Below, one piece after another: positions 7,639 to 41,038 of a stretch of 64,000 bases of DNA (position 1 is its first letter; the number at the start of each line of letters is the position of its first letter). The DNA lies in NCBI RefSeq assembly GCF_026000375.1, contig NZ_AP026708.1, positions 2,640,001-2,704,000 on the forward strand. The letters are read 5' to 3'. The position numbers and the translations under genes were made by a program. Under the pieces are notes generated by a model, which saw only the letters and a list, made by a program, of their open reading frames with translations, ran no database searches and had not been told where the DNA came from. The DNA is from Pseudodesulfovibrio portus. Lineage in GTDB: Bacteria; Desulfobacterota; Desulfovibrionia; Desulfovibrionales; Desulfovibrionaceae.

Positions 7639-7663
7639 GTTCCGTACGTATAGTGGTTTTATA

Positions 7664-7695: not shown

Positions 7696-7699
7696 GTTT

Positions 7700-7811: not shown

Positions 7812-7959
7812 AGGTGGGGGACGTGGTCGACGGACTTCGCCGAAGGCGCGACAAAAAGCTTTGGAAGGGGAGTCCAGAGGCATCCCCCCTGCTTTCCGGT
7901 TGAAGCGTGTGGTTGGGGGTGGTAGGTTGCAACTGACCGGATATTTTAAGGAGAGAACA

Positions 7960-8574: not shown

Positions 8575-8648
8575 GCTTTGTCTTTTCCGCGATTTTGATT
8601 ACCCTGCAACAATAACAAGAAACAACAGCGCCCCCGCCCCGCACCGCC

Positions 8649-8764
8649 CGCGAAGCGGATATAAAAAGTTTAGGAAAGGAGAGGGGATGGGGGTCCGGGG
8701 GAAGGGGAGAGGGACAACCCTTTTCAAAGGGGTTCCCTCTCCCCTTCCCCCGGCCGCCGGAGGC
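8649..8764 (-). repeat. GC-rich palindromic interspersed repeat, copy 2 (inverted)
   Basis: Read on the minus strand this matches copy 1 block by block: GCCTCCGGCGGCCGGGGGAA, a large hairpin with an inner A/T-containing palindrome, GGACCCCCATCCCCTC, then CTTTTT and GCTTCGCG. The plus-strand end of the element (CCGGAGG) supplies the ribosome-binding site of xseA, 6 bases before its TTG start. Confidence 0.85.
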
Positions 8765-8769
8765 ATCCC

Positions 8770-10188: not shown

Positions 10189-10196
10189 GGGTTTTG

Positions 10197-11186
10197 ATGA
10201 AACGGCTTGTTCTCCTTTTGGCTCTGGTCCTTTCCCTGACATTGCCGTTGGTTCCGGTATCGGTTCCGGCCCAGGATTTCGGTCTCGAGGAGGGCGACGA
10301 CGTGGGCGTGGTCCTGCCCGCCGACGCCGTGGCCGCCGAATCCGCCGCGTCAGCGGTCTCCGTGGAATCGGCCCTGGTCCTGGCCGCGCCCGGCAAGGTT
10401 GAGATCGGCCAGCCCTTTCTGGTGCGGCTGACCTCGGACCAGCCCCTTGAATCCGTTTCCATCCACTGGCTGGGCAAGGAGGTGGTGCCGTCCATCTCGG
10501 TCTGGAACAACCGCCACATCGCCCTGGCCATGCTCGGCACCGACGTCATCGACGCCAGGGCGGGCAAACAGGAGTTGACCGTCATCGCCTCGGTGGACGG
10601 CAAGGAGAACACCCTGCGCAGGGCCGTGCAGGTGCGCACCAAGAAGTATCCCAAGCAGGAATTGACCCTGCCGCCCTCCATGGTCACGCCGCCGCAGGAG
10701 GTCTACGACCGCATCGCCGCCGAGCGCGAACTGACCGCGGCGGCCAAGAACACGATCTCCGCCCAGCGGTTGTGGCGGCTGCCCCTGCTGCGCCCGGTGG
10801 ACGGGGACATGACCAGCGCCTACGGATTGCAGCGCATATTGAACGGCACGCCCAAGAACCCGCATCGGGGCAACGACATGCGTTCGCCCATGGGCAACCC
10901 GGTCAAGGCGGCGGCCGACGGCGTGGTCATCCTGGTGGGCGACCACTACTATGCGGGCAACTCCGTGTACATCGACCACGGCAACGGCGTGGTGACCATG
11001 TATTTCCACCTGTCCAAGCCCATCGTGAAACAGGGCGACAAGGTGCAGCGGGGCCAGGCCATAGGCCTGTCGGGTATGTCCGGCCGGGCCACGGGGCCGC
11101 ACCTGCATTTTTCCGTGTCCGTGCTCGGCAAGCTCGTGGACCCGGAGCCGTTGTTCGAGAACACCGTGGACAAGATGATCCAGTAA
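10197..11186 (+). CDS. Secreted M23 (LytM-type) peptidase, first of a tandem pair
   Basis: A 329-residue exported protein with a signal peptide (MKRLVLLLALVLSLTLPLV). About 170 residues of beta-rich linker precede the C-terminal LytM domain. Zinc ligands are in place: HRGND (H-x3-D), then HGNGVVTMYFHLS, and HLHFS (HxH). Such enzymes cut peptidoglycan cross-bridges or, when in envelope complexes, activate amidases. It starts 8 bases after xseA, so it is read in the same operon. The next gene is a paralogue with the same layout. Confidence 0.87.
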   Translation: MKRLVLLLALVLSLTLPLVPVSVPAQDFGLEEGDDVGVVLPADAVAAESAASAVSVESALVLAAPGKVEIGQPFLVRLTSDQPLESVSIHWLGKEVVPSISVWNNRHIALAMLGTDVIDARAGKQELTVIASVDGKENTLRRAVQVRTKKYPKQELTLPPSMVTPPQEVYDRIAAERELTAAAKNTISAQRLWRLPLLRPVDGDMTSAYGLQRILNGTPKNPHRGNDMRSPMGNPVKAAADGVVILVGDHYYAGNSVYIDHGNGVVTMYFHLSKPIVKQGDKVQRGQAIGLSGMSGRATGPHLHFSVSVLGKLVDPEPLFENTVDKMIQ

Positions 11187-11199
11187 CCCGCCGAACGTC

Positions 11200-12102
11200 A
11201 TGACAAGATATTCCCTGTTCCGCCGCTGTGTCGCGGTCGTTTTCCTGTGCATGCTCCTGACCGGCCCGGCCCTGGCCCGGCCTCGTCCCATGGTCGATGT
11301 CCGGGTCCCGGAAGCCGCCGGGGTGGGCAAGCCGTTCCTGGCCGTAATCGAGTCCTGGTATCCCCTTGAGAACGTCCGCGTCCGCTGGAACGGCGTCGAG
11401 GTATGTCCCGAGGTTTCCCTCGACAGGGAAAAGTACGTGGCCCCGGTGCTGCTCGGCATCGGCCTGCGCGGTGAGACCGGGACCTATCCCATCGAGGTCA
11501 CGGCCTCGATCTGGGGGCATGAACGCACTTTTTCCACGGACTTGACGATCATTGAATCCGCCTGGGGGAGCGAGACCCTGCGGGTGGACCCCAAGATGGT
11601 CACGCCGCCGCCAGAGGCCATGGCCCGCATCGAACGGGAGCGGGAGCTGATCACGGCGGCGATCAACATCGTCTCCGATGTCCGCTACTGGACCATGCCG
11701 TTTTCCCGTCCGGCCAAGGGCAGGATGCTCAGCCGCTTCGGCCTGCATCGCGTGTTCAACGGCCACACCAGGAGCCGCCACACCGGTTTGGACTTTCGCG
11801 CCTGGCTCGGCACGCCGCTGTATGCCATGGCTGCGGGCCGGGTTGTCCTGACGGGCAGCTTCTACTATGCTGGCAACAGTGTGCTCATCGATCACGGCAA
11901 CGGCCTGGTCTCCCTGTCCGCGCACATGTCCAAAATCCTGGTCAGGGAGGGGGACATGGTGGAGGCCGGACAGACTATCGGATTGTCCGGGGCCACGGGC
12001 AGGGTGACCGGCGCACACCTGCACCTGGCGGTTTTCGTCCAGGGACAGGTGGTGGACCCGGAGCTGTTCTTCACCGGCGAAATCGAAAGTATTTTTAATT
12101 AA
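11200..12102 (+). CDS. Secreted M23 (LytM-type) peptidase, second of a tandem pair
   Basis: A 300-residue exported protein with signal peptide (SLFRRCVAVVFLCMLLTGPALA). It has the same plan as the gene before it: a beta-rich N-terminal part with the shared motif GKPFLAVIESWYPLENV, the conserved connector DPKMVTPPPEAMARIEREREL, and a C-terminal LytM domain with HTGLDFRA, HGNGLVSLSAHMS and HLHLAV. All zinc ligands are kept, so both copies may be active. The pair is clearly a gene duplication. Gap to the first copy is 13 bases. No terminator was found before xseB. Confidence 0.87.
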   Translation: MTRYSLFRRCVAVVFLCMLLTGPALARPRPMVDVRVPEAAGVGKPFLAVIESWYPLENVRVRWNGVEVCPEVSLDREKYVAPVLLGIGLRGETGTYPIEVTASIWGHERTFSTDLTIIESAWGSETLRVDPKMVTPPPEAMARIERERELITAAINIVSDVRYWTMPFSRPAKGRMLSRFGLHRVFNGHTRSRHTGLDFRAWLGTPLYAMAAGRVVLTGSFYYAGNSVLIDHGNGLVSLSAHMSKILVREGDMVEAGQTIGLSGATGRVTGAHLHLAVFVQGQVVDPELFFTGEIESIFN

Positions 12103-12217
12103 AAGTAATATATTCCAGTCAGTAATAGATTGCTTGAAATGATCAATCAGGAATAATGACACCAGGAGCCGGCGGCGCGATACCTATCGTCCAGAGCCGG
12201 TTCAACGGAGTGAATCC

Positions 12218-12451
12218 ATGGCAAAAGATACATTTGAGAGCCGCCTGGAGCGGTTGAAGGACGTGGTCGAGAAGCTGGAGCGCGGCGACCTGCCCCTGGA
12301 AGAGGGCGTGGCCCTGTACAAAGAGGGGCTGGAGCTGGTCAAGGCGTGCGGCAAGCAGCTGGAAAGCGCCCGGCACGAGGTCAAGATCGTGTCCGAGGGG
12401 CTGGTCCGGGAATTCGAGGCCCTCGAGGCCCTCGGCGACGACACGGAGTAA
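12218..12451 (+). CDS. xseB: Exodeoxyribonuclease VII small subunit
   Basis: A 77-residue protein of the XseB family, which packs along the large subunit. Typical features are FESRLERLKDVVEKLERGDLPLEEGVALYKEGLELV and a coiled-coil-prone character. It is followed 4 bases later by the polyprenyl synthase gene, the usual xseB-ispA-dxs order in many proteobacteria. Confidence 0.94.
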   Translation: MAKDTFESRLERLKDVVEKLERGDLPLEEGVALYKEGLELVKACGKQLESARHEVKIVSEGLVREFEALEALGDDTE

Positions 12452-12455
12452 GAAC

Positions 12456-13355
12456 ATGACCATCAAGGAACAACTGGCCGTGCGCGCGGCAAGGGTCGAG
12501 GATTTCCTGGTCCTGTGCATGCGGGATCGGGGTATCCCGGAGCGGCTGCTCAGGTCCATGGAGTACTCGCTGCTGGCGGGCGGAAAGCGGCTGCGCCCGG
12601 TGCTGATGCTGTCGTGGGCCGGGCTGCTCGGCAGCGAGGGGGTCACGGACAGGATCATGCCCTTTGCGGCCTCCCTCGAGTGTATCCACACCTATTCCCT
12701 CATCCACGACGACCTGCCCGCAATGGACGACGACGACCTGCGGCGGGGCAGGCCGTCCAACCACAAGCAGTTCGACGAGGCCACGGCCATCCTGGCGGGC
12801 GACGGGCTGCTCACCGAGGCCTTCGGGCTGATGAGCGCCGCGTCCATCGTCAACGGGCTGCCTGCGGACCGCGTGCTCAGGGCCGTCTTCGTGCTTGCCA
12901 AGGCGGCGGGCGCGGGCGGCATGGTCGGCGGCCAGGCCGTTGACATGGAGTTGACCGGTTGCACCGACGTGCCGCTCGACGACCTGCGCACCATGCACGC
13001 CATGAAGACCGGCGCGCTCATCACCGCAGCCTGCGAGTGCGGGGCCATCCTGGCGGGCGCCGGGGACGCGGACGTGGAGAACGCCCGCGAGTTCGGGCGC
13101 AACATCGGCGTGGCCTTCCAGATCGTGGACGACGTCCTGGACGTGGTCAGCGACACCGAGACCCTTGGCAAGCCCGCAGGAAGCGACGAGGCCATGGGCA
13201 AGTCCACCTACCCCTCGCTCATGGGGCTGGAGAAGAGCAAGTCGCTGGCCTCGGACTATGTTGAAATCGCACTGACGCGCCTTTCCGGATACTATGGGGC
13301 CGAGCAGGAATTCCTCTGGCAATTGGCCCGATACATAGTGGACAGGGTTTACTGA
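12456..13355 (+). CDS. ispA: Polyprenyl diphosphate synthase (farnesyl/geranylgeranyl type)
   Basis: Cytoplasmic prenyltransferase that joins IPP units to an allylic diphosphate. The first Asp-rich motif is DDLPAMDDDDLRRGRPSNH, the second is QIVDDVLDVVSD, and GGKRLRPVL binds IPP. The 299-residue length fits IspA-type enzymes. Placement between xseB and dxs supports farnesyl diphosphate synthase; a geranylgeranyl product cannot be excluded from sequence alone. Confidence 0.92.
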   Translation: MTIKEQLAVRAARVEDFLVLCMRDRGIPERLLRSMEYSLLAGGKRLRPVLMLSWAGLLGSEGVTDRIMPFAASLECIHTYSLIHDDLPAMDDDDLRRGRPSNHKQFDEATAILAGDGLLTEAFGLMSAASIVNGLPADRVLRAVFVLAKAAGAGGMVGGQAVDMELTGCTDVPLDDLRTMHAMKTGALITAACECGAILAGAGDADVENAREFGRNIGVAFQIVDDVLDVVSDTETLGKPAGSDEAMGKSTYPSLMGLEKSKSLASDYVEIALTRLSGYYGAEQEFLWQLARYIVDRVY

Positions 13356-13376
13356 TTGAACTAATCTTTCCCGTCT

Positions 13377-15275
13377 ATGATCAACGATCCGAAGAAGACA
13401 GCCATCCTGTCCAAGATACGGCGGCCCGGCGACGTGCGCGCCCTGGAGACCGACCAGATAGACGTCCTCGCGAGCGAGCTCCGGGATGTCATCATCAGCC
13501 AGGTGTCCTGCCACGGCGGCCATCTGGCTCCCTCCCTTGGCGTCATCGAACTGACCCTGGCCCTGTTCCGTTCCTTTGACCTGGAGCGTGACAAGCTCGT
13601 CTGGGACGTGGGCCATCAGGCCTATGCCCACAAGCTGTTGACCGGCCGGGCGGACCGATTCTCCACCCTGCGCCAGAAGGACGGCCTCAGCGGCTTCCCG
13701 CGTCTGGCCGAGTCGGAGTACGACCACTTCGGCGTGGGCCACTCCTCCACCTCCATTTCCGCTGCGCTGGGCATGGCCATGGCCCGCGACCTCAAGGGCG
13801 AGGACCACGAGGTGGTGGCCGTCATCGGCGACGGCTCCCTGACCGCCGGGCTGGCCTTCGAGGGCTTGAACCAGGCGGGCGACCTGGGCCGCAAGATGGT
13901 GGTGGTCCTGAACGACAACGAGATGTCCATCTCCAAGAACGTGGGTGCCCTGTCGCAGTTCCTGTCGCGCAAGATGACCACCCCGTTCCTGCAGCGGCTC
14001 AAGGCCGACGTGGAAGGGCTGCTCGGCACCATTCCCAAGATCGGCGACGACCTGGCCGGGTATGCCAAGCGGTACGGCGACTCCGTCAAGTCCTTCTTCA
14101 CGCCCGGCATCCTGTTCGAGGCCTTCCACTTCACCTACGTCGGCCCCATCGACGGCCACGACACGGCCCAGATGGTCAAGGTCTTCGAGGAGATCAAGAA
14201 GCTCAAGAAGCCGGTGCTCGTGCACGTCATGACCAAGAAGGGCAAGGGATACCAGCCCGCCGAGTGCGACCCGTCCCACTATCACGGGGTGGGCAAGTTC
14301 ATCCCCGAGACCGGGTTGGCGCGCAAGTTCTCCGGCTCGGGCCTGCCGTCCTACACGTCCATCTTCGGGTCCACGCTCTGCGCCCTGGCCGACAAGGACG
14401 AGAAGATCGTGGCCATCACCGCGGCCATGCCCGAGGGCACTGGCACCGAATGTTTCCACCAGCGGTTCCCGGAGCGGTTCGTGGACGTGGGCATCTGCGA
14501 GCAGCACGCGGTGACGTTCGCCGCAGGGCTGGCCACCCAGGGATACAAACCGGCGGTGGCCATCTATTCCACCTTCCTGCAGCGCGCCTACGACCAGATC
14601 GTGCACGACGTCTGCCTGCAGAACCTGAACGTGAATTTCTTCCTGGACCGCGGCGGCCTGGTCGGCGAGGACGGGGCCACCCACCATGGCGTGTTCGACA
14701 TGAGTTTCCTGCGCCACATCCCCAATCTGGTGGTCATGGCCCCCAAGGACGAGGCCGAGCTGGCCCAGATGATGGCCACGGCGTTCGCCCATGACGGGCC
14801 GTGCGCCATGCGCTACCCGCGCGGCACCGGCGTCGGGGCCAAGGTGTCGGAGAACCCGCGCAGGATCGCCATAGGCAAGGGCGAACTGGTGCACGACGGC
14901 GAGGACGCGGTGATCGTCACCCTGGGCTCCCGCGTGTACCCGGCCATGGAAGCGGCCATGGAGCTGGAAAAAACCGGCCTTTCCGTGGCCGTGTTCAACT
15001 CCCGCTTCGTCAAGCCCCTGCCCGCAAAGCAGCTCCTGGAACTGGCCGGTCGCTTCGACCGCATCCTGCTCCTCGAGGAAAACGCTCAGGCGGGCGGCTT
15101 CGGCTCCGCCGTGCTGGAAATGCTCAACGAGGAAAACGTCCTGTCGGGCAAGCGCGTCCACCAGTTGGCCATTCCCGACGAGTTCATCGAGCACGGCACC
15201 CAGAAGGAACTGCGCGCCATGTTGGGAATCGACAAGGCGGGCATAAAGAAAGCGGTCAAGAAGCTCTGTAAGTAG
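13377..15275 (+). CDS. dxs: 1-deoxy-D-xylulose-5-phosphate synthase
   Basis: First enzyme of the MEP pathway; condenses pyruvate and glyceraldehyde 3-phosphate with thiamine diphosphate. The 632-residue protein has the N-terminal HLAPSLGVIELTLAL segment, the thiamine-diphosphate motif GDGSLTAG with NDNEMSISKN, the DRGGLVGEDGATHHGVFD segment in the pyrimidine-binding domain and a C-terminal transketolase-like domain. It starts 21 bases after ispA and ends the operon, with a terminator shortly after the stop. Confidence 0.97.
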   Translation: MINDPKKTAILSKIRRPGDVRALETDQIDVLASELRDVIISQVSCHGGHLAPSLGVIELTLALFRSFDLERDKLVWDVGHQAYAHKLLTGRADRFSTLRQKDGLSGFPRLAESEYDHFGVGHSSTSISAALGMAMARDLKGEDHEVVAVIGDGSLTAGLAFEGLNQAGDLGRKMVVVLNDNEMSISKNVGALSQFLSRKMTTPFLQRLKADVEGLLGTIPKIGDDLAGYAKRYGDSVKSFFTPGILFEAFHFTYVGPIDGHDTAQMVKVFEEIKKLKKPVLVHVMTKKGKGYQPAECDPSHYHGVGKFIPETGLARKFSGSGLPSYTSIFGSTLCALADKDEKIVAITAAMPEGTGTECFHQRFPERFVDVGICEQHAVTFAAGLATQGYKPAVAIYSTFLQRAYDQIVHDVCLQNLNVNFFLDRGGLVGEDGATHHGVFDMSFLRHIPNLVVMAPKDEAELAQMMATAFAHDGPCAMRYPRGTGVGAKVSENPRRIAIGKGELVHDGEDAVIVTLGSRVYPAMEAAMELEKTGLSVAVFNSRFVKPLPAKQLLELAGRFDRILLLEENAQAGGFGSAVLEMLNEENVLSGKRVHQLAIPDEFIEHGTQKELRAMLGIDKAGIKKAVKKLCK

Positions 15276-30803: not shown

Positions 30804-32528
30804 ATGTCAGATGTCACTTACTACCAGGGGCTTGTCAAAAGCATGATGTTCACCATCATACTGGTTTCCTTTGCCCCTCTCCTGATCATCGTCCTCATCG
30901 CCGGATACCAGTACAGCGTGGTCTACGAGGAAAAGGTGGAGGCCCACCTGCGTGAGCTGGTGCTCAAGCACGATCAGTCAGTGGACAGTTATCTCAAAGA
31001 GAAGGTCGCGGAAATACAGGTTTTTTCCGAGATCATGGACATCGACGCCCTGTCCGACCAGACACGGCTCGAGGCCCTGCATGACGCCCTGGTGCGGGGG
31101 CACGGCAATGTTTTCGTGGACCTCGGGCTGATCAACAGCGAAGGGGTCCAGGTGGCCTACTCCGGCCCGTACAAGCTCCAGGGCGTGGACTACTCGGATG
31201 AGGGATGGCTCAGGGAGGTCCGGGAGCGGAGCGTGCACGTGTCCGACGTGGGGCTGGGGCTCAGGGGCGTGCCGCACTTCACCATCTCCCTCAGGCTCGA
31301 AGCGGACGGACGCGAGTGGTTCCTGCGCACCACGCTGGATTTCATCGCCTTCAACAAGCTGGTGGAGGACATCCGCATCGGCGAGACCGGCATGGCCTAC
31401 ATCATCAACCGGCAGGCGGAGTTCCAGACCACGCCGCGCCGGGACATGACCGGCGAGATTCCCCTGTTGCGCGAGCTCATTCGCTCGCCCAGCTCCGAAA
31501 TGGCCCAGGGCCGGGCGTCCATGAGCATCCGGACCAACCCCGCCAACGGGCGCGAGACCATTTTCGTGACCAGCCCCATCAAAAACGGGGAGTGGCTCCT
31601 GGTCTACCAGCAGGAGTCGGCCGACGCCTATTCCGACCTCAACCGTTCCCGCAACCTGGCCCTGGTGGTCCTGCTCCTGGGCGGCATAGCCATCACGGTC
31701 ATGGCCTACCTCATGAGCCGCCGCATGGCCCGCAGGATCGAGCATGCGGACCTGGACAAGGAGATCATGAACGAGCAGGTCATCGAGGCGGGCAAGCTGG
31801 CCAGCGTGGGCGAGCTGGCCGCAGGCATCGCCCACGAGATCAACAACCCGGTGGCCATCATGGTGGAGGAGGCCGGGTGGATTCAGGACCTGCTGGAAGA
31901 GGGGCTGTCCAAGAGCGACAACGAGCGCGAGGTGCAGCGGGCCCTGAACCAGATCCGCACCCAGGGCGGGCGGTGCAAGGAGATCACCCACAAGCTCCTC
32001 AGTTTCGCCCGCAAGATCGACCCCACGGTCAAGTATTTCTGTCTCAACGAAATGGTCCACGAGATCGTGGCCCTGTCCGAGCAGCGGGCCAAGTACGCCA
32101 ACGTGGTCATCGAGACCAGCCTGGCGGACAACATCCCCCCGCTGGAGGCGAGCCCTTCCGAGATGCAGCAGGTCTTTTTGAACCTGGTCAACAACGCCAT
32201 CGACGCCATGGACCCGGGCGGGGGCAATCTCGACATCAGCTCCCGGGTGGAAGGCGACCAGGTGCTGGTGGCCATCAGCGACACAGGCTGCGGCATTCCC
32301 AAGGCCAACCTGCCGCGCATCTTCGACCCGTTCTTCACCACCAAGCCGGTGGGCAAGGGGACCGGGCTCGGCCTGTCCATCATCTACGGCATCATCAACA
32401 AGATGGGCGGGACCATTTCCGTGAATTCCGCAGTGAACCAAGGGACCACCTTCACCCTCCGGCTTCCGGCGGGCAAGGTGGATGAAGGCGTCGCGTGCAA
32501 CGTGCCCGGCGCAGGAGGGGCGGCCTGA
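30804..32528 (+). CDS. Membrane sensor histidine kinase with Cache-type sensor
   Basis: A 574-residue kinase. A membrane helix (about 15-37), a periplasmic Cache-like domain of about 240 residues (IRIGETGMAYIINRQAEFQT is typical), a second helix (about 285-305), then HisKA with the phosphorylated H344 in GIAHEINNPVAIM and a HATPase domain with NLVNNAIDAMDPG, DTGCGIPKANLPRIFDPFFT and GTGLGLSIIYGI. The start at 30804 has GGAG 8 bases upstream; the frame extends further but the membrane helix fits this start. It heads a five-gene run with three receivers and a PEP-synthase-like protein. Confidence 0.93.
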   Translation: MSDVTYYQGLVKSMMFTIILVSFAPLLIIVLIAGYQYSVVYEEKVEAHLRELVLKHDQSVDSYLKEKVAEIQVFSEIMDIDALSDQTRLEALHDALVRGHGNVFVDLGLINSEGVQVAYSGPYKLQGVDYSDEGWLREVRERSVHVSDVGLGLRGVPHFTISLRLEADGREWFLRTTLDFIAFNKLVEDIRIGETGMAYIINRQAEFQTTPRRDMTGEIPLLRELIRSPSSEMAQGRASMSIRTNPANGRETIFVTSPIKNGEWLLVYQQESADAYSDLNRSRNLALVVLLLGGIAITVMAYLMSRRMARRIEHADLDKEIMNEQVIEAGKLASVGELAAGIAHEINNPVAIMVEEAGWIQDLLEEGLSKSDNEREVQRALNQIRTQGGRCKEITHKLLSFARKIDPTVKYFCLNEMVHEIVALSEQRAKYANVVIETSLADNIPPLEASPSEMQQVFLNLVNNAIDAMDPGGGNLDISSRVEGDQVLVAISDTGCGIPKANLPRIFDPFFTTKPVGKGTGLGLSIIYGIINKMGGTISVNSAVNQGTTFTLRLPAGKVDEGVACNVPGAGGAA

Positions 32529-32566
32529 CGGGCCGACGGGCAGGACGGGCAAACCAGGAGGTATTC

Positions 32567-32998
32567 ATGCCTGCGAACATTCTTCTCGTGGACGATGAAC
32601 AGGGTTTCGTGGAGACCCTGGCAAAACGGGTGGCCAATCGGGGACTGACCGTGCATACCGCCATGAGCGGGCAGGAGGCCATCGACTTCCTGGCCGGGAA
32701 CCACTCGGTGGACGTGGTGGTCATGGACGTGAAGATGCCCGGAATCGACGGCACCGAGGCGCTGAAGCTCATCAAGAACGCGCACCCGCTGGTCGAGGTC
32801 ATCATGCTCACCGGGCACGCCACCGTGGAGTCCGCCATCGAGGGCATGAAGTCCGGGGCCTTCGACTACCTGATGAAACCGGCCGAGCTGGAGGACTTGC
32901 TGGCCAAGGTCAATGAGGCGTACGACAAGAAGCAGACGCACGAGACCAAGATCCTTGAGGCGCGGGCGCGGCATATCGTCCTGCGCAGGGGGGATTAG
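32567..32998 (+). CDS. Single-domain response regulator 1
   Basis: A 143-residue CheY-like receiver without output domain. Acidic pocket LVDDEQ, phospho-acceptor Asp in VVVMDVKMPG, Thr in MLTGHA and Lys in YLMKPAELEDLL are all present. The C-terminal 30 residues are charged and helical. AGGAGG lies 5 bases before the ATG. It follows the kinase gene by 38 bases, so it is a likely direct partner. Confidence 0.92.
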   Translation: MPANILLVDDEQGFVETLAKRVANRGLTVHTAMSGQEAIDFLAGNHSVDVVVMDVKMPGIDGTEALKLIKNAHPLVEVIMLTGHATVESAIEGMKSGAFDYLMKPAELEDLLAKVNEAYDKKQTHETKILEARARHIVLRRGD

Positions 32999-33032
32999 CG
33001 GTGAGCCGGTGTGCGCAGCGGGGTATCGAACC

Positions 33033-33404
33033 ATGAGCGAAACGCCTATCCGGGTTCTTCTGGTGGATGATGAAGTCGGCTTCCTGGAGGTCATGAGCAA
33101 GCGGCTGGGGCGGCGCGGGGTGCGCGTCACTCCTGTGGCCAGCGGCACCGAGGCCATCCGGGTGCTCAGGGGAAGCGATTTCGACGCGGCCATTCTGGAT
33201 CTCAAGCTCGAGGATATGGACGGCATCGAGATTTTGCATATATTCAAGAAGATGGTGCCGGACATGCCGGTCATCATGCTCACGGGCCACGGCTCGGAAC
33301 AGGCGGCCAGGGAGGGCATGCAGTCCGGTGCCTTCGACTACCTGCTCAAGCCGTGCGAACTGGAAGAACTGCTGGACAAGGTGCACAAGGCCGTCGGCAG
33401 ATAG
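33033..33404 (+). CDS. Single-domain response regulator 2
   Basis: A 123-residue CheY-like receiver. LVDDEV, the Asp in AAILDLKLEDMDG, MLTGHG and YLLKPCELEELL mark the active site. It is the most divergent of the three (LKLEDMDG in place of VKMPGMDG after the Asp) and carries a Cys next to the conserved Lys-Pro. The ribosome site is weak. It lies 34 bases after receiver 1. Confidence 0.9.
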   Translation: MSETPIRVLLVDDEVGFLEVMSKRLGRRGVRVTPVASGTEAIRVLRGSDFDAAILDLKLEDMDGIEILHIFKKMVPDMPVIMLTGHGSEQAAREGMQSGAFDYLLKPCELEELLDKVHKAVGR

Positions 33405-33425
33405 GCAAGAAAAACGGAGAAACGT

Positions 33426-33836
33426 ATGGCCGGTATCACTGTGCTTCTCGTGGACGACGAGGAGTCATTTCGAAGAACGCTGGGCAAGCGGCTGGACAAG
33501 CGCGGATTTGTCGTGGAGGAAGCCGGGACGGGCGAGGAGGCGCTGGAGAAGATCGCCGCCGCAGCGCCCGACGTCATCCTGCTCGACGTCAAGATGCCGG
33601 GCATGGACGGGTTGACCGCCCTGCACAAGATCAAGGCCATGGAGCCGCTTGTGGAGGTCATCATGCTCACGGGTCACGCCTCCATGGAGATCGCCATCCG
33701 GGGCATGGAACTCGGCGCGTTCGACTACCTGATGAAGCCCGTGGAGTTCGAGGAGCTGCTGTACAAGCTGGAGGACGCGGCCAAGCGAAAGCAGCATCAG
33801 GAGAGCCGCATCGAAGCCCGGACCCACTCCCAGTAG
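33426..33836 (+). CDS. Single-domain response regulator 3
   Basis: A 136-residue CheY-like receiver close in sequence to receiver 1: LVDDEESFRRTLGKRLDKRG, the Asp in VILLDVKMPGMDG, MLTGHASMEIAI and YLMKPVEFEELL. The C-terminal 25 residues are basic/acidic and helical. ACGGAGAAACGT precedes the start. It lies 21 bases after receiver 2, and about 100 bases before the phosphotransfer gene. Confidence 0.92.
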   Translation: MAGITVLLVDDEESFRRTLGKRLDKRGFVVEEAGTGEEALEKIAAAAPDVILLDVKMPGMDGLTALHKIKAMEPLVEVIMLTGHASMEIAIRGMELGAFDYLMKPVEFEELLYKLEDAAKRKQHQESRIEARTHSQ

Positions 33837-33935
33837 CGGGCCCGACGTGTCGTATTTTCCCGGCGACGGGCGCGAAGCCCGTCGCCGTTTCTCATGGATC
33901 GCCAATGTGCGTGATAGCCGGAAAAAGGTGGTGTG

Positions 33936-36524
33936 ATGGGGTGGTTTGACTGGCTGCCGTGGAAGAAACGGGAACGGACTCCGGAAGAGATCGCCGAGAT
34001 CCGCCGGACGTTTGCCGTCCGCTATGACCATTTCCGCCTGCTCATCCAGGCCAACACCCGCGCCCACGAGCTGATAGGCGAGCTGGAAGAGGCGTTGCGC
34101 GGGTTCACGCCCTACGGCATGCAGTACGTGCAGACCCTGTGCACGCGCATCTCCACCTCCATATACAAGATGGTCCGCCACCTGGGCGAACTGAATCCCA
34201 AGGGGCAGGCCGAACTGAACCGGGCCATGGAGTCCATCAACGAGAAGATCATGGCCGTGCTCATCCCGGAGGAGCACCCGGAATCAGGCCAGCCGGTCAT
34301 CGACCTGGCCCGTGTGGGGCGCGACCACGCGGACCTGTGCGGACCCAAGATGGCCATGCTGGGCGAGGCGGGGAGCAAGCTGGGCCTGACCATCCCGGCC
34401 GGTTTCGTCATCACCGTGGCCGCCTACCGCCGGTTCATGCAGGCGGGCGGCATCGGCGGCGAGATCGACCGGCTGATCACGGCCACGGACGAGAACGACC
34501 GGGCCGCCGTGTTCAAGACCTCGGCGGACATCATGCAGCTGATAATGGACACGCCCGTGCCGAGCGACCTGGCCGAGGCCATCCTCGGGGCCTATGACGC
34601 CCTGTCCGTGGAACTCGAGCGGCAGCCGGAGCTGGCCGTGCGTTCGAGCGCCCTGGGCGAGGACGCCGAGGGGTCCTCCTTTGCCGGGCAGTATCGGTCC
34701 GTGCTCAACGTGGACCGTGGCTCGCTGATCGATGCCTATCGGGAGGTGGTGGCTTCCAAGTATTCCCGCCAGGCCATGGCCTACCGTATGAATCACGGCA
34801 TTCCGGACACGGACGTGGCAATGAGCGTGGGCTGCATGACCATGGTGGGCGCCGCGGCAGGCGGCGTGGCCTATTCCCGCAGCCCGGTCAACGTGCGCGA
34901 CGACCATGTCTCCATCCACTCGGTCTGGGGGCTGCCCAAGCCCGTGGTCGACGGCACGGCCGAGACAGATGAATTTCACGTCAGCCGCAACCCGCTGGCA
35001 GTGAGCTGGAGCGTGGTGGCCGACAAGACGGTCATGTTCGTGTGCGGCGATGACGAGGGCGTCTGCCGGGAGGACCTTGCCGAGGACCGGATGAAGGCCC
35101 CCTCCCTGACCGAGGAGCAGGCCCTGGCCGTGGCCCGCGAGGCCATCCGCATCGAGGAGCATTTCGGCACGCCCCAGGACATCGAGTGGGCCATGGACAT
35201 GGACGGCGGCTTCCACCTGCTGCAATGCCGCCCGCTCATGCAGGTGTCTGCGGACGATGCGCCCGGAGCCGGCAAGGCGGAGCGCGGGGACTCTGCGCTG
35301 CCCGAGCCGGTCCTGTCCGGCGGGCGCGTGGCCAGCCCGGGCGTGGGCGTCGGACCGGCGTACACCCTGCGCAAGGACGTGGACGCGCTTACCTTCCCGG
35401 ACGGCGGGGTGATGATCATCAAGCAGGCGTTGCCCAGCCGGGCTGCGTTGCTCGACCGGTGCAGCGCGGTCGTCGCCGAGCAGGGGGGAATGGCCGGGCA
35501 CCTGGCCAACGTGGCCCGCGAGTTCGGCGTCCCGGCCCTGTTCGGGCTCAAGGGCGCGGTGGGACATTTCGAGAACGGGACCATCCTGACGGTGGATGCG
35601 GACGGGCGGAGCGTCTACCGGGGCGCGGTGGAATCCCTGCTGGTGGAACGGCCACGGCAGCGCGTCATGCAGGGCAGCCAGGTGCACGCCGCCCTCAGGC
35701 AGGCGGCCCGGCACATCGTCCGGCTCAACCTGACCAACCCGGAGTCACCGGAGTTCCGGCCTGAAAAGTGCCGGACCCTGCACGACGTCATGCGCTACTG
35801 CCACGAGAAGGCGGTGTCCGAGATGTTCGAGTTCGGCACCAACGAGGACTTCATCGAGGCCGCGTCCCGCCAACTCATCTGCGGGGTGCCCAAGCAGTTC
35901 TGGATACTCAACCTGGACGACGGGTTCGCCCCTGAGACACGCGAGCGCACCGACCGGTGCGTACTCCTGGAACAGGTCGAGTCCTATCCCATGCAGGCGT
36001 TGTGGGCGGGCATGCAGGCCGTGCCGTGGGAGGGGCCGCCCCCGGTGCACGCGCGCGGGTTGATGTCGGTCATGTTCGAGGCCACCACCAACCCGAACCT
36101 GGTCACGGCGGCAGGCTCTCACTACACCCAGAAAAACTATTTCATGGTCTCGAAGAATTACTGCGCGCTCCAGTCCCGTTTCGGTTTCCATTACTGCGGG
36201 GTGGAGTCACTGGTCTCGGACCGGATCAGCGAGAACTATGCCAGCTTCCAGTTCAAGGGCGGGGCCGCCAATGCCGAGCGCCGTATCCTGCGCGCCCGGT
36301 TCGTGGGCGATCTGCTTGAGGAATTCGACTTCCGCGTCCGGGTGCGGGAGGACAACCTGGTCGCCCGCGTGGAGGGGCTGGCCCGCGAGTCCATGGGCAA
36401 GCGATTGAAAATCCTTGGCTACCTGATCACCCACACCCGTCAGCTGGACATGATCATGACCGACAAGGCGGCCGTGAAGCGGCGTCGGGAACGATTCCTC
36501 AAGGATTTCGAGATGTTTAATTAA
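33936..36524 (+). CDS. PEP-synthase-like phosphotransfer protein with unknown C-terminal domain
   Basis: An 862-residue cytoplasmic protein. About 110 helical residues come first, then (about 125-440) an ATP-grasp domain like the N-terminus of PEP synthase/PPDK (LGEAGSKLGLTIPAGFVITV, RSSALGEDAEGSSFAGQYRS, IEWAMDMDGGFHLLQCRPL), then the swivelling phosphohistidine domain with H522 in AEQGGMAGHLANVAREFGVP. The PEP/pyruvate barrel that would complete a PEP synthase is missing; instead there are about 280 residues of unknown type (KNYFMVSKNYCALQSRFGFH). It should form a phospho-His from ATP and pass it to an unknown acceptor. The start at 33936 has AAGGTGG upstream. Confidence 0.85.
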   Translation: MGWFDWLPWKKRERTPEEIAEIRRTFAVRYDHFRLLIQANTRAHELIGELEEALRGFTPYGMQYVQTLCTRISTSIYKMVRHLGELNPKGQAELNRAMESINEKIMAVLIPEEHPESGQPVIDLARVGRDHADLCGPKMAMLGEAGSKLGLTIPAGFVITVAAYRRFMQAGGIGGEIDRLITATDENDRAAVFKTSADIMQLIMDTPVPSDLAEAILGAYDALSVELERQPELAVRSSALGEDAEGSSFAGQYRSVLNVDRGSLIDAYREVVASKYSRQAMAYRMNHGIPDTDVAMSVGCMTMVGAAAGGVAYSRSPVNVRDDHVSIHSVWGLPKPVVDGTAETDEFHVSRNPLAVSWSVVADKTVMFVCGDDEGVCREDLAEDRMKAPSLTEEQALAVAREAIRIEEHFGTPQDIEWAMDMDGGFHLLQCRPLMQVSADDAPGAGKAERGDSALPEPVLSGGRVASPGVGVGPAYTLRKDVDALTFPDGGVMIIKQALPSRAALLDRCSAVVAEQGGMAGHLANVAREFGVPALFGLKGAVGHFENGTILTVDADGRSVYRGAVESLLVERPRQRVMQGSQVHAALRQAARHIVRLNLTNPESPEFRPEKCRTLHDVMRYCHEKAVSEMFEFGTNEDFIEAASRQLICGVPKQFWILNLDDGFAPETRERTDRCVLLEQVESYPMQALWAGMQAVPWEGPPPVHARGLMSVMFEATTNPNLVTAAGSHYTQKNYFMVSKNYCALQSRFGFHYCGVESLVSDRISENYASFQFKGGAANAERRILRARFVGDLLEEFDFRVRVREDNLVARVEGLARESMGKRLKILGYLITHTRQLDMIMTDKAAVKRRRERFLKDFEMFN

Positions 36525-36549: not shown

Positions 36550-36587
36550 GCAGTTGAATTCGTTTTGCGACTTCAACTGCTTTTTTT
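36550..36587 (+). terminator. Rho-independent terminator after the phosphotransfer gene
   Basis: Stem GCAGTTGAA / TTCAACTGC with a 13-base loop (partly paired TTCG..CGA) and seven T. The T-run is also the outer end of the foldback element that follows. Confidence 0.9.
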
Positions 36588-37292
36588 GGTGTGGGCGCAT
36601 TCGCGTTCAGCTTCATTCGTTCTCCTTTTGGAGTGTTCCGCCACTACGGCGGCCCTGTTTTTGGCTGGCGCCCCAAAAATAGGGGAAAAAGGGCGCTTTT
36701 TGGGCTAGCTCGCGCTGTCAGGCCCAAGAGCCTGTAGGCGACGTTGCTGCCCGTCTGCAAACCTTCCTTTGGCAGGGTCGACGGGCTACGCAAGTCGCCC
36801 GGAACAGGCTCTAGGGCCTGACAGCGGATTGTCCGCCATTATCGAAAGACTCGCTCATCTCCAACGGGCGCACCTAAAGGATCGTATGCTCAAACAATCA
36901 GGGTTTGCATCAGCCCTTGATTGCGACCTAGAAACCGACAGCGAGGGGCGGCGGCTCCCGTGAGGCGACACGATAATTTTCCAGGGAGAATCGTTTAAGG
37001 GAGAGGAAGCGCGTGCCAATCCCCAGGGATGGGAGCCGTCCCGAGTTGATCGGATTCTTGCCGCGATCTTGGGGGCGGCCAAATTTGCCAAGCGCACTTT
37101 TTGCTTACTTTTTGGGGCGCCTAGCCACAAATCCGCAGGACAGCGGATTTGGAGCGCGCCTGGCAAGGCGCGACCCCGAAGGGGTGAGGGCCATGGACGG
37201 CCCGAATCAAAAAGTCAGCCGCTGTAAAAGCGGAACACAAAGTAAGGAGAACGAATGAAGCTGAACGCGAATGCGCCCACAACAAAAAAAGC
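36579..37292. repeat. Foldback element with about 49-bp terminal inverted repeats
   Basis: The ends 36579-36627 and 37244-37292 are complementary over about 49 bases with one mismatch, including the 37-base perfect core GTGGGCGCATTCGCGTTCAG... . Inside are nested inverted repeats: GGCTGGCGCCCCAAAAA (36663-36679) with TTTTTGGGGCGCCTAGCC (37109-37126), and CGCTGTCAGGCCC (36713-36725) with GGGCCTGACAGCG (36814-36826) plus GAGCCTGT/ACAGGCTC and GGCGAC/GTCGCC. A hairpin AAATCCGC/GCGGATTT lies at 37129-37150. No transposase or other gene is supported inside. It sits exactly between two converging terminators. Confidence 0.85.
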
Positions 37293-37342: not shown

Positions 37343-37741
37343 TTACTTCACGTGGCACTCGCCACAGGCCACGGGGCCCTTGCCCTGTGTCTCGTGGCAG
37401 GTGATGCACTGCCCGTGATAGGCGCGCATGAGCGGGGTGCCGCCGTCGGTGCGTTCCACCTCGTGGCAGGAGGAGCAGGCTTCGCCCTCGGAGGATTCCT
37501 CGAGGTTCTGCGTGCCGTCGTCGTTCCTGGAGTGGTGGCAGACCACGCAGTCTTCCAGCTCGGCCTTCTCGTTGTGCGCGTCATGCTCGAAGGCGGCCTG
37601 GGGCCGTTCCAGCTTGGCGAACGCGTCCACCGGGATGTGGGTCATGTCGTCCTGGGAATAGGCGACCGGAGCCATGTAGGCGATGACCAGCGCGATGATG
37701 GTCAACATGGAGGCCGCGAGTTTCAGCGTATTCTTTTTCAT
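37343..37741 (-). CDS. tmcA: Tetraheme cytochrome c3 of the Tmc complex (TmcA)
   Basis: A 132-residue periplasmic cytochrome with a signal peptide (residues 1-29) and four CxxCH heme sites: C65-C68-H69, C89-C92-H93, C112-C115-H116 and C126-C129-H130. The mature size of about 100 residues fits type II cytochrome c3, which takes electrons from periplasmic hydrogenase via type I c3 and gives them to TmcB/C. It is the last gene of the tmc operon, 9 bases after tmcB. Confidence 0.93.
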
Positions 37742-37750
37742 GGCGTCCTC

Positions 37751-39070
37751 CTAGAGTTCCGGTTTTTCCATCAGTTCGTAGATGATGTCGCCGATGAACT
37801 TACCGTGCATGCCGAGATCATAGTAACCGATGATGTCTTCAATGCCGCCGTGGCAGTTGTGGCACGGGATGACCACGTCCTTGACGCCGGTGGCCTTGAG
37901 CTGTTCGGCCTTGACCCGGTTGCCCGTCATGCGGGTGTTCTTGAACGGCGGACCGCAGTTGATGACGCCGCCGCCCGCGCAGCAGCAGTAGTTGTGCTCG
38001 CGGTTGGGGGTCATTTCCACGACCTCTTCGCACAGGAAGTGAACCACGTCGCGCAGCTTGTCCATGAGGCCCCGGCCGCGGATGATGTTGCACGGGTCCT
38101 GGATGGTGACGGGCTTCTCGTACTTGTGGGTGATCTTGATCTTGTTGTCGCGGATCAGTTCCCAGTAGAAGTCGATGGCGTGGATGACCGGGACGGGCAT
38201 CTTCTTGTGGCCGAGCCAGCGGTTGCCCATGTCGTAGACAGAGCGGAAGGCGTGGCCGCATTCGCCCATGACGATGCGCTTGACGCGCAGCTTCTGGGCC
38301 GATTCGTAGTGGGCGCGTTTCAGGCGGCCCATGTTCTCGAAGTCGCCGACGAACATGCACATGTCCGAGTTGTCCCAACCCGGATGGGAGGGCATGGTCC
38401 AGTCGCAACCGGCTGCGTTCATGATGGCGGCGGCCTGGTAGATGAGCTGGGTCCGGAACTTGGGTTCCGGGGCGATGACCGAGTAGTAGATATCGGCGCC
38501 TTCCTTGTCCAGCGGGATGCGCAGGTCAGGGAATTCGTCGCGGGCTTCGTCTTCCTGCCACTGCAGGGAGTCGATCCACTCGTCGTCCTTGACCCACATC
38601 TGGTTCATGGTGGAGGAGTGGGAGTGGGCGGTGTCGCGGATGTACTGCGGGACAACGTCCAGCAGGTAGCAGATGCGGCGGACCATGGACATTATGTAGC
38701 CGGTGTCGATGCCGATGGGACAGTAGTGAGCGCACCGCTTGCACAGGTTGCATTCGGTGTAGGCCATCTGCGCCATCTCGTAGATGCGCTGGGGTTCGAC
38801 CTTGCCCTTCTTTTCCATCAGTTCATACATGGTCTCCGTGGCCTTGTTGACCGGCGAGTAGCTCGGGTCCTGGTCGTGGGACATGTAGTAGTGGCAACCC
38901 TGGGAGCAGAGGCCGCAACGCATGCAGGTCTCTTTGTATGCCCTGAGTTTGGCGCCGGTTTCGCCTTTGAGCATCTGGTTGACCACTGTCTCGATTTTCT
39001 CGGTGGTCAATCCGGCAACGCCGGCCTCAAGGCCGACATCGGATATGATTCTGTCAGCAATGTGACTCAT
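37751..39070 (-). CDS. tmcB: Tmc complex iron-sulfur subunit (HdrD/CCG-type) TmcB
   Basis: A 439-residue cytoplasmic-side subunit. Two ferredoxin-type motifs (CMRCGLCSQGCHYY near residue 46 and CNLCKRCAHYCPIG near 105) are followed by two cysteine-rich CCG-like regions (HNYCCCAGGG and CHNCHGG), as in HdrD and DsrK. Such subunits carry out disulfide/thiol or electron-transfer chemistry at [4Fe-4S] clusters. Context with tmcA and tmcC fixes the assignment. Ribosome site before ATG 39070 is present (CGAGGTAC). Confidence 0.92.
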   Translation of the reverse strand: MSHIADRIISDVGLEAGVAGLTTEKIETVVNQMLKGETGAKLRAYKETCMRCGLCSQGCHYYMSHDQDPSYSPVNKATETMYELMEKKGKVEPQRIYEMAQMAYTECNLCKRCAHYCPIGIDTGYIMSMVRRICYLLDVVPQYIRDTAHSHSSTMNQMWVKDDEWIDSLQWQEDEARDEFPDLRIPLDKEGADIYYSVIAPEPKFRTQLIYQAAAIMNAAGCDWTMPSHPGWDNSDMCMFVGDFENMGRLKRAHYESAQKLRVKRIVMGECGHAFRSVYDMGNRWLGHKKMPVPVIHAIDFYWELIRDNKIKITHKYEKPVTIQDPCNIIRGRGLMDKLRDVVHFLCEEVVEMTPNREHNYCCCAGGGVINCGPPFKNTRMTGNRVKAEQLKATGVKDVVIPCHNCHGGIEDIIGYYDLGMHGKFIGDIIYELMEKPEL

Positions 39071-39103
39071 TATTCGTACCTCGCGTTACTGTGATGGTTT
39101 GGC

Positions 39104-39763
39104 CTACCAGTCATTGGCATGGCGAACGCCGCCGAATTCCGATCCCATGTACGCCCTGGTGAACAGGACGAACAGCGCGTGGCTCAGGCGGGTGAACGGG
39201 ATCAGTGCGATCAGCAGTTCAGCGCTCAGCACGTGCAGGATGGTCATCAGGAGAACCGGGCCGATCTGGTGATAGGCCAGGACGCCGGTGATGAACGGCA
39301 GGATGACGAGGATCAGGGCAAACCAATCCTGGCAACGGGTGACTCCCTTGACGTGGGGCAGGGAGAGCCGACGATAGGCGAAGACCGCACAGCCCGCGAT
39401 GGCCACGAAGCTGACGATGTCGCCGAAAGCGGTCGGCAGGCTCGGGATGGAGATGCCGAAGTTCATGTCCCACAGGACCACGTGCGCGTTCAGGAACACC
39501 GCCACCAGAAGGAAGGCGATGTGGAACACGAAGGTGGTGACAGTCATCAGGGGATCGGATTTCCAGCCTTGGGACTTGAAGGGGACCATCCAGGCGAGGA
39601 TGGACCGCAGTCCGTAGAACCAGCTCATGTAAGCCAGGGAGGAGCCGTCCTTGGCCTTGGCCAGCGCGTACATGCTGACCAGACGGTAGACGGACCCTAT
39701 GATGAAGATGCCGAAGGCGATCCAAGCCAGGGGGCCGGTGACGAAAGAATATAAGGATGTCAT
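39104..39763 (-). CDS. tmcC: Tmc complex membrane subunit TmcC
   Basis: A 219-residue integral membrane protein with about five hydrophobic helices (WIAFGIFIIGSVYRLVSMYA, FVFHIAFLLVAVFLNAHVVL, FGDIVSFVAIAGCAVFAYRR, WFALILVILPFITGVLAYHQ and ILHVLSAELLIALIPFTRL). The histidines in these helices (FHIAF, LNAHVV, LAYHQ, LHVLSAE) fit heme b ligands, like NarI/DsrM. It links periplasmic TmcA to cytoplasmic TmcB. GGAGGGAG precedes the start. Confidence 0.9.
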   Translation of the reverse strand: MTSLYSFVTGPLAWIAFGIFIIGSVYRLVSMYALAKAKDGSSLAYMSWFYGLRSILAWMVPFKSQGWKSDPLMTVTTFVFHIAFLLVAVFLNAHVVLWDMNFGISIPSLPTAFGDIVSFVAIAGCAVFAYRRLSLPHVKGVTRCQDWFALILVILPFITGVLAYHQIGPVLLMTILHVLSAELLIALIPFTRLSHALFVLFTRAYMGSEFGGVRHANDW

Positions 39764-39778
39764 TGCGTCTCCCTCCGC

Positions 39779-41038
39779 CTAGAATTGGGCCACGTCGGCA
39801 ACGATGCGGACATAGCTGTTGTTTTCGATGGCGCGGATCAGCACCTTGGTGCCGTCCTCGTTGAAGACCGGGGGCCACGCCTGGTCGAAGTCGCGCTCGT
39901 AAGCCTTGCCGTTGACCAGGATGCGGCGCTTGCCGTCCTTTTCCACCATGCAGGCCACGTTCTTGGAATCGGCAGAGAAGGCGACAGGCCAGGCCATGTC
40001 GTATGTGCCGGTCCAGGCGGTGCCGTCCACAACGATCTTGAAGTTCTCGTTGTACTCGCTGGTCAGCAGCCCGGCACGGGTGCCGTCGGGGCTGACGACC
40101 AGGTCGTTGGCGGTGGGGTAGGTTTCGCTCCAGGGGGCGTTGTTCCTGCATGCGGTGAACTGCCCGTAGCTGGTGGCCACCACGGCCCACAGGTTGTCGC
40201 CGGAAGCGTCGTACTGCAATTCCAGACACTGGATGTAACGCGGTTCCCAGATGAACGCGCCGTCCTTGGCCACGCCCCACTTGCCGCCTTCGCGGGCCGG
40301 GGCGGCCACGGAGTCGTCCTTGGGGTTGAAGACCGGTTCCCAGACCTGGTTGAAGGTCTTGGTCCAGGGCACGTCGTCCACGGCGATGGTGTTGTCGTAG
40401 ACGGTGACGCGGACCTGCGCGGCGACCTTGTCGCCGGCATCGTTGAACCGCGGCGTCCAGATGTTGACGTACATGTTGTCCCAGGGCTTGCCGTCCACGA
40501 CCACGGAGTAAGCGCCGCTCTTGAAAGCTTCGAGGTCGGCTGCGGCCATTGACTTGACCTGGGCCACGCCTGCCGTGTGGGCGCCGTCTTTCGACAGCGC
40601 GGGCTGGCTGAGGTTCTCATAGAGGTTTTCCCACGGCTCGCCGTTGACGCACATGCCGTACTGTTCCATGGACTTGTACATGGTTGCGAACGTGGAACCG
40701 TCTTCGCTGATCAGCGTGTCCCAGACGTAGTCCGTGGCTTCGCCGACAGATTCACCGTCCGCAAACAGAGCCCATTCCATGTCCTGCTGACAGATGGCGG
40801 TCAGCCGTCCGTCCGGAGAAAACTTCGGATACCAGATCTTTTCGAACGTGGCTTCCCAAACTGTGTTGTTGGTACGAATGGAGAATTCGCCGTCGCCGAC
40901 CTTGACGATTGCGGCGATGGTTTCACCGTCAGGAGAGACATACGGCTCTTCCTGCCATTCGTGTCCATCGAGAGGGGAGAGGGACTCAACGACCGTTTTC
41001 TGGCCGATTTCCCAATCCCAAGAGGAGATTTTTCCCAT
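39779..41038 (-). CDS. tmcD: Tmc complex subunit TmcD (WD40-like repeat protein)
   Basis: A 419-residue protein without signal peptide. It has regularly spaced repeats of the type VSPDGETIAAIVKVGDGEFS and FSPDGRLTAICQQDMEWALF, each followed by WD or WE-containing strands, so a beta-propeller is likely. It is the first gene of the tmc operon here (order D-C-B-A). Ribosome site AAGGGGGTG. The role of TmcD in electron transfer is unknown; it is known as a regular part of the complex's gene cluster. Confidence 0.88.
   Translation of the reverse strand: MGKISSWDWEIGQKTVVESLSPLDGHEWQEEPYVSPDGETIAAIVKVGDGEFSIRTNNTVWEATFEKIWYPKFSPDGRLTAICQQDMEWALFADGESVGEATDYVWDTLISEDGSTFATMYKSMEQYGMCVNGEPWENLYENLSQPALSKDGAHTAGVAQVKSMAAADLEAFKSGAYSVVVDGKPWDNMYVNIWTPRFNDAGDKVAAQVRVTVYDNTIAVDDVPWTKTFNQVWEPVFNPKDDSVAAPAREGGKWGVAKDGAFIWEPRYIQCLELQYDASGDNLWAVVATSYGQFTACRNNAPWSETYPTANDLVVSPDGTRAGLLTSEYNENFKIVVDGTAWTGTYDMAWPVAFSADSKNVACMVEKDGKRRILVNGKAYERDFDQAWPPVFNEDGTKVLIRAIENNSYVRIVADVAQF

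Follow-up and report, generated by a model that had tools for sequence, protein, structure and literature searches.

The stretch of DNA analysed here (the window) comprises 64,000 nucleotides of Pseudodesulfovibrio portus (NZ_AP026708.1, positions 2,640,001 to 2,704,000), whose genome is a single contig of 3.40 Mb and whose nearest named relatives among the matches listed are Desulfovibrionaceae and Pseudodesulfovibrio MAGs. The locus under study encodes a histidine kinase, three receivers and an 862-aa phosphotransfer protein, for which we use the working name PPSL. Its features are as follows.

30804–32528, + strand: membrane histidine kinase, 574 aa (dCache_1, HisKA, HATPase_c; from Pfam and translation)
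32567–32998, + strand: single-domain receiver a, 143 aa (PF00072, E = 2e-29)
33033–33404, + strand: single-domain receiver b, 123 aa from the ATG at 33033 (PF00072, E = 4.6e-28, scanned with one extra leading residue)
33426–33836, + strand: single-domain receiver c, 136 aa, adjoining PPSL (PF00072, E = 5.3e-33)
33861–33887, + strand: 11-bp perfect hairpin followed by TTTCTC, a possible terminator or attenuator (terminator scan)
33936–36524, + strand: PPSL, 862 aa (Pfam, AlphaFold2 model, conservation)
34287–35255, + strand: ATP-grasp part of PPSL, with K138, R236, D415, E417, Q430 and R432 (PPDK_N, alignment to PEP synthase and rifampin phosphotransferase, conservation)
35304–35633, + strand: swivelling phospho-His domain of PPSL, with H522 (PF00391, structural alignment)
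35673–36521, + strand: new C-terminal domain of PPSL, with invariant H616-D617, H623, H752, R786 and D838 (no Pfam or PDB match; conservation)

The initial annotation had placed a Cache kinase, three lone receivers and the 862-aa protein here; all five ORFs are open and Pfam agrees with these assignments. The kinase matches dCache_1 (E = 1.9e-15), HisKA (E = 3.5e-8) and HATPase_c (E = 8.4e-29), and by reading the Asp, Thr and Lys residues are kept in each of the three Response_reg receivers; in Pfam terms, the components of a two-component system are present. The genes lie on the + strand with intergenic gaps of 38, 34, 21 and 99 bp from the kinase through receivers a, b and c to PPSL. The suggestion that they form one operon-like unit is qualified by the hairpin in the 99-bp gap before PPSL: PPSL may be partly uncoupled from the upstream genes. 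In many relatives this gap is the position of a TauE-type transporter and a small membrane protein, TM236, and the nearest relative (L075) has, read by eye, a similar gap hairpin of different bases. The terminator scan of the region found seven candidates vs 5.2 in shuffled sequence, which is near chance, and the fold of the whole 99-bp gap is not unusual (z = -0.45). The idea of a TauE-TM236 remnant in the gap, a matter of sequence reading alone, was dropped. No Rfam family reached its gathering threshold between 30500 and 37500.

Between PPSL and tmcA lies an intergenic element of about 700 bp (36579–37292) with 75-bp terminal inverted repeats that are 87% alike. It contains no long ORF of note and matches 59 stretches of the genome, including five other near-full-length copies at 78–85% identity, as in a MITE-like family. 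A tmcA-D-like operon follows on the - strand (37343–41038), convergent with PPSL; going by its gene names, it is the presumed tmcABCD electron-transfer operon. PPSL also lies near tmc genes in L037, L061, L062, L066 and L076, with different intervening content. DVU0258–DVU0262 of Desulfovibrio vulgaris may be the neighbours of tmc in that species, and a search of open-licence literature for these locus tags returned no papers. At the end of the window are a second kinase (62376–63974) and a receiver protein (61663–62379; - strand), unlinked to PPSL.

PPSL consists of an N-terminal helical domain (residues 1–117), an ATP-grasp part (118–440), a swivelling phospho-His domain (457–566) and a C-terminal domain (580–862). 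Pfam assigns PPDK_N (PF01326) to residues 133–440 (E = 1.4e-88) and PEP-utilizers (PF00391) to 487–556 (E = 8e-15), which upholds the initial assignment of a PEP-synthase-type ATP-grasp and His domain with H522, and finds nothing else at E ≤ 1. The AlphaFold2 model of the protein, built on 66 sequences, has a mean pLDDT of 85.5 and shows three helices at residues 16–109. Among 65 PPSL proteins, K138 is kept in 59, R236 in 63, D415 in 60, E417 and Q430 in 61 each, R432 in 64 and H522 in 63. The same residues are kept in 80 or 81 of the 81 proteins from the best 80 named loci (H522 in 80 of 81). PPSL thus retains the conserved residues of a predicted ATP-binding and phospho-His module, with roles that we presume from work on PEP synthase and PPDK and from the alignment.

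The known proteins closest to this module differ from PPSL in distinct ways. PEP synthase (PpsA) has the ATP-grasp part and the swivelling His domain in the same order, and structure 2ols aligns with PPSL residues ~116–564 at Z = 39.5 over 359 residues (rmsd 4.2). However, PPSL lacks the PEP/pyruvate barrel and has instead the helical N-terminus and the new C-terminal domain; a Gly directly precedes the catalytic His in 46 of 65 PPSLs, and PPSL scores far below the PEP synthase cut-offs (PRK06464, 318.7 bits over residues 120–604 vs 598; TIGR01418, 311.4 vs 739.75). Rifampicin phosphotransferase (Rph) likewise combines an ATP-grasp part and a His domain without a PEP barrel and passes the phosphoryl group to another acceptor; it aligns with residues ~116–564 at Z = 40.2 over 422 residues (rmsd 3.2). 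Its domain order is nevertheless ATP-RIF-His, with the His domain last and the acceptor domain between, whereas the His domain of PPSL is central, and PPSL reaches 212.6 bits with NF041857 against a cut-off of 999. The His domain itself aligns with 2e28 (VIA-align Z = 18.6, 114 residues, rmsd 1.6), and shares its fold with enzyme I of the PTS and its nitrogen-branch relative (2wqd; Z = 16.7, 113 residues, rmsd 2.0). In enzyme I, a phospho-His swivelling domain feeds the regulation of transport. PPSL differs from it in having an ATP-grasp part, not PEP, as the presumed phosphoryl source and in lacking the enzyme I barrel.

The C-terminal ~280 residues had been described as being of unknown type, and the HMM search of residues 580–862 against Pfam was indeed empty: the window PPSL matched no family at E ≤ 1 in this part, and the PEP/pyruvate barrel PF02896 gave no match at E ≤ 1 anywhere in the protein. 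Across 20 relatives, three Pfam families each matched a single member weakly (best E = 0.057), and the profile of the domain gave a single match to PDB sequences (E = 1.7). Folded alone by AlphaFold2 (287 residues, 78 sequences; pLDDT 82.6), the domain is modelled as helices and antiparallel strands. In agreement with the initial annotation, a PEP/pyruvate barrel was rejected on two grounds, the missing PF02896 match and a model that is not an alternating eight-fold barrel. Foldseek found no convincing relative of the model (best E = 0.022), and the best VIA-align score was Z = 5.5 over 105 residues (rmsd 4.3). Matches to the folds of T4 MotA, type III chaperones, arginine kinase (67 residues) and DCoH were set aside as below the tool's meaningful level. 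The searched copy of Pfam has no name for the predicted domain and the PDB no match to it, and a missing match does not amount to proof of a new fold.

H616, D617, H623, H752, R786 and D838 are each present in 65 of 65 PPSLs. Such invariant residues look active-site-like rather than like a docking face, and rifampin phosphotransferase is close in structure to the ATP-grasp and His parts (Z value above); both points would suit a reading in which PPSL is a metabolic enzyme that phosphorylates the imported (or exported) molecule itself in the style of that enzyme, the C-terminal domain binding the molecule. We consider this unlikely in view of the transporter and mutant data described below.

The C-terminal domain was matched in 58 of 148 genomes sampled over Desulfobacterota, with up to 12 matches per genome. 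The named set (the best 80 of a longer list of matches, and our sole view of taxa beyond the phylum) covers Desulfovibrionaceae, Syntrophobacteraceae, Desulfobacterales, Desulfacinum, Desulfomonile, Desulfarculus and two 'Myxococcales' MAGs. Several natural variants occur within the family. Directly after TauE-TM236 in L205 (genome G188; 8174–9346, - strand), a 390-aa protein has lost the ATP-grasp and His module, while profiles still recognise its helical N-terminus (E = 1.2e-6) and its C-terminal domain (E = 3.8e-67); judged from its sequence, it is a natural deletion of the putative phosphotransfer module. A PPSL copy in a TauE-PhnD-HK neighbourhood (L198, G041) has a decayed ATP-grasp part and no His domain. 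The loss of H616 and H623 from both proteins is no more than suggestive of H522 being coupled to the HD-R-HE motif of the C-terminal domain; strict coupling was rejected because L134 and two tandem copies have lost H522 and kept the motif. These tandem partners (G054_2569497 and G033_1315743) have lost their ATP-site residues together with H522. Tandem PPSL pairs or triplets were seen at L169/L170, L171/L206, L194 and L196, each with one copy whose ATP-site residues are decayed, which suggests active/inactive pairs. Beside TM236-TauE in L174 (G143; 8215–10786, - strand), PPSL is split over two frames (ORFs of 634 and 177 aa) by either a frameshift or a sequencing error. The scanned loci contain 184 PPSL ORFs that score above 150 bits, and among these there was no REC-PPSL gene fusion of the kind that would have been direct evidence for contact.

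We took a census of the neighbourhoods of all PPSL copies in 18 hand-picked PPSL-bearing genomes, mostly of few contigs (68 rows representing 67 genes), and compared them with 20 control regions hand-chosen at round coordinates, not at random, in 10 of the 18 genomes. A TauE/SafE or Na+:sulfate-type (DASS) transporter was encoded within 8 kb of 47 of the 67 PPSL genes (41 TauE, 6 DASS), within 6 kb of 42, within 3 kb of 26 and within 1 kb of 14, vs 1 of 20 controls within 8 kb, with TauE and DASS profiles that were built from PPSL loci and thus favour matches there. A receiver or kinase lay within 1 kb of 44, within 3 kb of 52 and within 8 kb of 58 PPSL genes; among the controls this was so for 1 of 20 within 1 kb and 2 of 20 within 8 kb. 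Fisher tests at 8 kb, which treat related genes as independent, gave p = 1.4e-7 for the transporter and p = 3.5e-10 for the receiver or kinase. Hence a link of the PPSL family to anion transporters (TauE/TSUP and DASS) is well supported, and the phosphotransfer gene regularly occurs with kinase and receivers. Neither of the two findings that would have spoken against the initial annotation, a C-terminal barrel or a phosphotransfer gene regularly lacking kinase and receivers beside it, emerged.

The census also bears on whether the kinase and receivers are mere neighbours of a PPSL that is a housekeeping relative of PEP synthase. Twenty of the 67 genes, the window copy included, had no transporter detected within 8 kb; five of these twenty had no detected neighbour of the system at all, neither transporter nor two-component gene, and together with the hairpin between receiver c and PPSL they speak for chance adjacency. 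Against it stand the receiver or kinase counts at 1 kb in PPSL and control regions and the missing barrel, and we regard such adjacency as very improbable.

Four kinds of neighbourhood were distinguished: the common order HK-RECs-TauE-TM236-PPSL; REC-RECCBS-DASS-Yip1-REC-PPSL-HK; TauE-membrane protein-PhnD-HK-REC-PPSL-DSP phosphatase; and a shorter TauE (~350 aa) with REC and PPSL. Among the 49 named loci whose upstream sequence extends for at least 5.5 kb, a set chosen for likeness to the window PPSL, TauE and TM236 lie directly upstream of PPSL in 36, and a receiver and a kinase are also present in the same direction in 27. TM236 is a small membrane protein of ~236 aa whose two ends contain hydrophobic stretches and which matches no Pfam family above the cut-off. 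It occurs in 37 of the 148 genomes of the phylum, and each of these 37 belongs to the 58 that have PPSL (hypergeometric 3e-20, phylogeny ignored). A kinase and a larger, NtrC-length receiver protein are found near the set in many loci. In a DASS-type locus (L035; 11407–12348, - strand), a receiver is fused to CBS domains. Since CBS domains often bind adenine nucleotides, this receiver would fit a PPSL that makes AMP.

The contexts were further mapped on a tree of 65 PPSLs (quick search, SH-aLRT), from which, as from the residue counts over 65 proteins, G188 C32 and G041 C1:1373812, the kinase-less and the degenerate protein, were left out for want of a full-length ORF and in which G038_3361049, with an in-frame TGA, was kept as is. 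The context labels required 21 changes vs 39 when shuffled, with 2 changes for the PhnD/DSP kind and 3 for the DASS kind; as inferred from this tree, some PPSL clades follow the transporter type. The TauE-TM236 label alone was not more clustered than expected (10 changes vs 11.3 by chance), because copies without TauE-TM236 lie among copies with it. The window PPSL sits among the TauE-TM236 PPSLs (smallest starred sets of 4, 7 and 17 rows) and outside the PhnD/DSP clade.

No ORF of the 64-kb window matched TauE, DASS, TM236, PhnD or DSP. The genome nevertheless has three PPSL copies; one of the other two lies beside a DASS permease, and the third beside TauE, PhnD and a DSP phosphatase (L036/L161), where the DSP-type phosphatase ORF overlaps the end of the PPSL ORF. 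A TauE-TM236 pair with its own kinase and three receivers is found 46 kb downstream (L159). This locus (6807–14868) holds a second HK-REC-REC-REC cassette, TauE-TM236, and a kinase with an NtrC-length receiver protein; the cassette is possibly an old duplication of that in the window. TM236 is encoded elsewhere in the genome in all eight genomes whose window-kind PPSL is not beside TauE-TM236 (G000, G086, G075, G106, G049, G023, G072 and G101; five of these PPSLs were placed by the tree, whereas for G086, G049 and G023 the placement used gene order and identity alone). Because TM236 is carried by 15 of the 16 genomes searched (G013 lacks it), this result fits a partner in trans and does not prove it. 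The pair 46 kb downstream, of the kind that partners the window PPSL clade elsewhere, is likely to be the transporter in this genome. The transporters were invisible to the initial annotation because the window has none and the lineage carries TauE-TM236 elsewhere.

Published genetics of a related gene set bear on its function. The 'nitrate cluster' of D. vulgaris and D. alaskensis (DVU0251–DVU0245; Korte and co-workers, PMC4001038) comprises by annotation TauE, a hypothetical protein, a PtxB/PhnD-like protein, a kinase, a receiver, a PPDK/PEP-utilising gene and a DSP phosphatase, in the same order as the third copy of the P. portus genome (L036/L161). Annotation and gene order, rather than sequence, place DVU0246 in the PPSL family, and its PPSL would fall in a different clade from that of the window, whose set differs in having three receivers and no PhnD or DSP. 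Searches of open-licence literature found no gene set of this kind beyond the nitrate cluster. In that study, D. vulgaris transposon mutants in DVU0251 (TauE), DVU0250, DVU0247 (receiver) and DVU0246 (PPDK/PEP-utilising) grew alike with and without 100 mM nitrate, whereas the DVU0245 (phosphatase) mutant and the control were inhibited by 100 mM nitrate. All cluster genes in Table 3 of that paper, phosphatase included, had positive fitness in nitrate in D. alaskensis, so that phosphatase mutants are resistant in that species but not in D. vulgaris. For DVU0250 the results from pooled and from single mutants are in partial disagreement, and the kinase gene of the D. vulgaris cluster is annotated as a pseudogene. 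The authors proposed a leaky thiosulfate transporter and, in the parts covered, gave the PPDK-like protein no role (PMC4001038).

The published data show that the nitrate sensitivity conferred by the transporter depends on the receiver as well as on the PPSL-type gene (PMC4001038). If the order of transcription is that of the matching loci, with DVU0251 at its start, DVU0245 is the one cluster gene after DVU0246, and polarity therefore does not explain the effect of DVU0246. Passage of nitrate through the transporter, or else expression of the transporter, would thus seem to require the PPSL-type protein itself. The available data fit the latter as well (PMC4001038), and PPSL and the receivers may act on transcription of the transporter operon rather than on transport, with PPSL producing a small signal, for instance. 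Besides the kinase and NtrC-length receiver protein near the set in many loci, the nitrate resistance that also follows loss of the Rex regulator (PMC4001038) would agree with this view. However, the window receivers have no output domain, no DNA-binding domain was found in PPSL with Pfam and NCBIfam, and the kinase and NtrC-length pair, where present, could fill that role; we rate transcriptional control as improbable. As for PPSL as an enzyme acting on the transported molecule, the overlapping phosphatase ORF of the third copy speaks for it. However, nitrate, an unlikely native substrate, became non-toxic once the PPSL-type gene was hit (PMC4001038), and no enzyme acting after entry would be needed for that. 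In addition, the associated transporters come from unlike families (TSUP and DASS), and the variant without the kinase part of PPSL adjoins TauE-TM236 (L205).

We favor instead, at a probability of about one half, a reading in which the window unit supplies the signalling and phosphotransfer side of a system for anion transport: His-phosphotransfer driven by ATP, under the control of kinase and receivers, would license an anion transporter. The set would probably switch anion transport on and off. The kinase would sense a periplasmic ligand through its Cache domain and, as gene adjacency suggests, phosphorylate the lone receivers. Since these have no output domain, they would work through contact with another protein, the adjacent PPSL being the simplest candidate and its helical N-terminus a possible site. 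PPSL would take a phosphoryl group from ATP onto H522 and pass it on to an acceptor bound at the C-terminal domain; candidates for this acceptor are the transporter or its small partner, a receiver and a small molecule, and the transfer would make the anion transporter competent. The data show the components, how well they are conserved, the linkage of their genes and, for a sister cluster, a joint phenotype; the receiver–PPSL contact, the acceptor step and the direction of the signal are parts that we infer. The initial annotation had proposed ATP-driven phosphotransfer under kinase and receiver control. That proposal is partly supported: the barrel is absent, the ATP-grasp and His residues are conserved, and kinase and receivers are regular neighbours. 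What has changed is that the family is now tied to anion transporters.

More tentatively, and at distinctly lower odds, the locus may represent a phosphorelay of an undescribed kind, in which a sensor kinase and output-less receivers gate a phospho-His protein fed by ATP, and the new C-terminal domain of this protein acts directly as the switch of a secondary anion carrier. Such a system would be PTS-like but run on ATP, widespread in sulfate reducers and matched to carriers of at least two unrelated families. The gene set is built from known parts, and its new points are the C-terminal domain and the tie to anion transport.

How sulfate reducers choose anions and control their uptake is poorly known. 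In a 2018 survey, TSUP proteins were present in 44 of 44 genomes and function predictions were judged 'not feasible' (PMC5840216). If the favored reading is true, such carriers would gain a regulator, and an explanation would be offered for the unexplained nitrate genetics, which have a bearing on the treatment of oil reservoirs with nitrate (PMC4001038). The analysis also defines a protein domain that is widespread, has no name and contains invariant residues, and an ATP-fed His-phosphate route would join the mechanisms already known for the switching of secondary carriers in bacteria.
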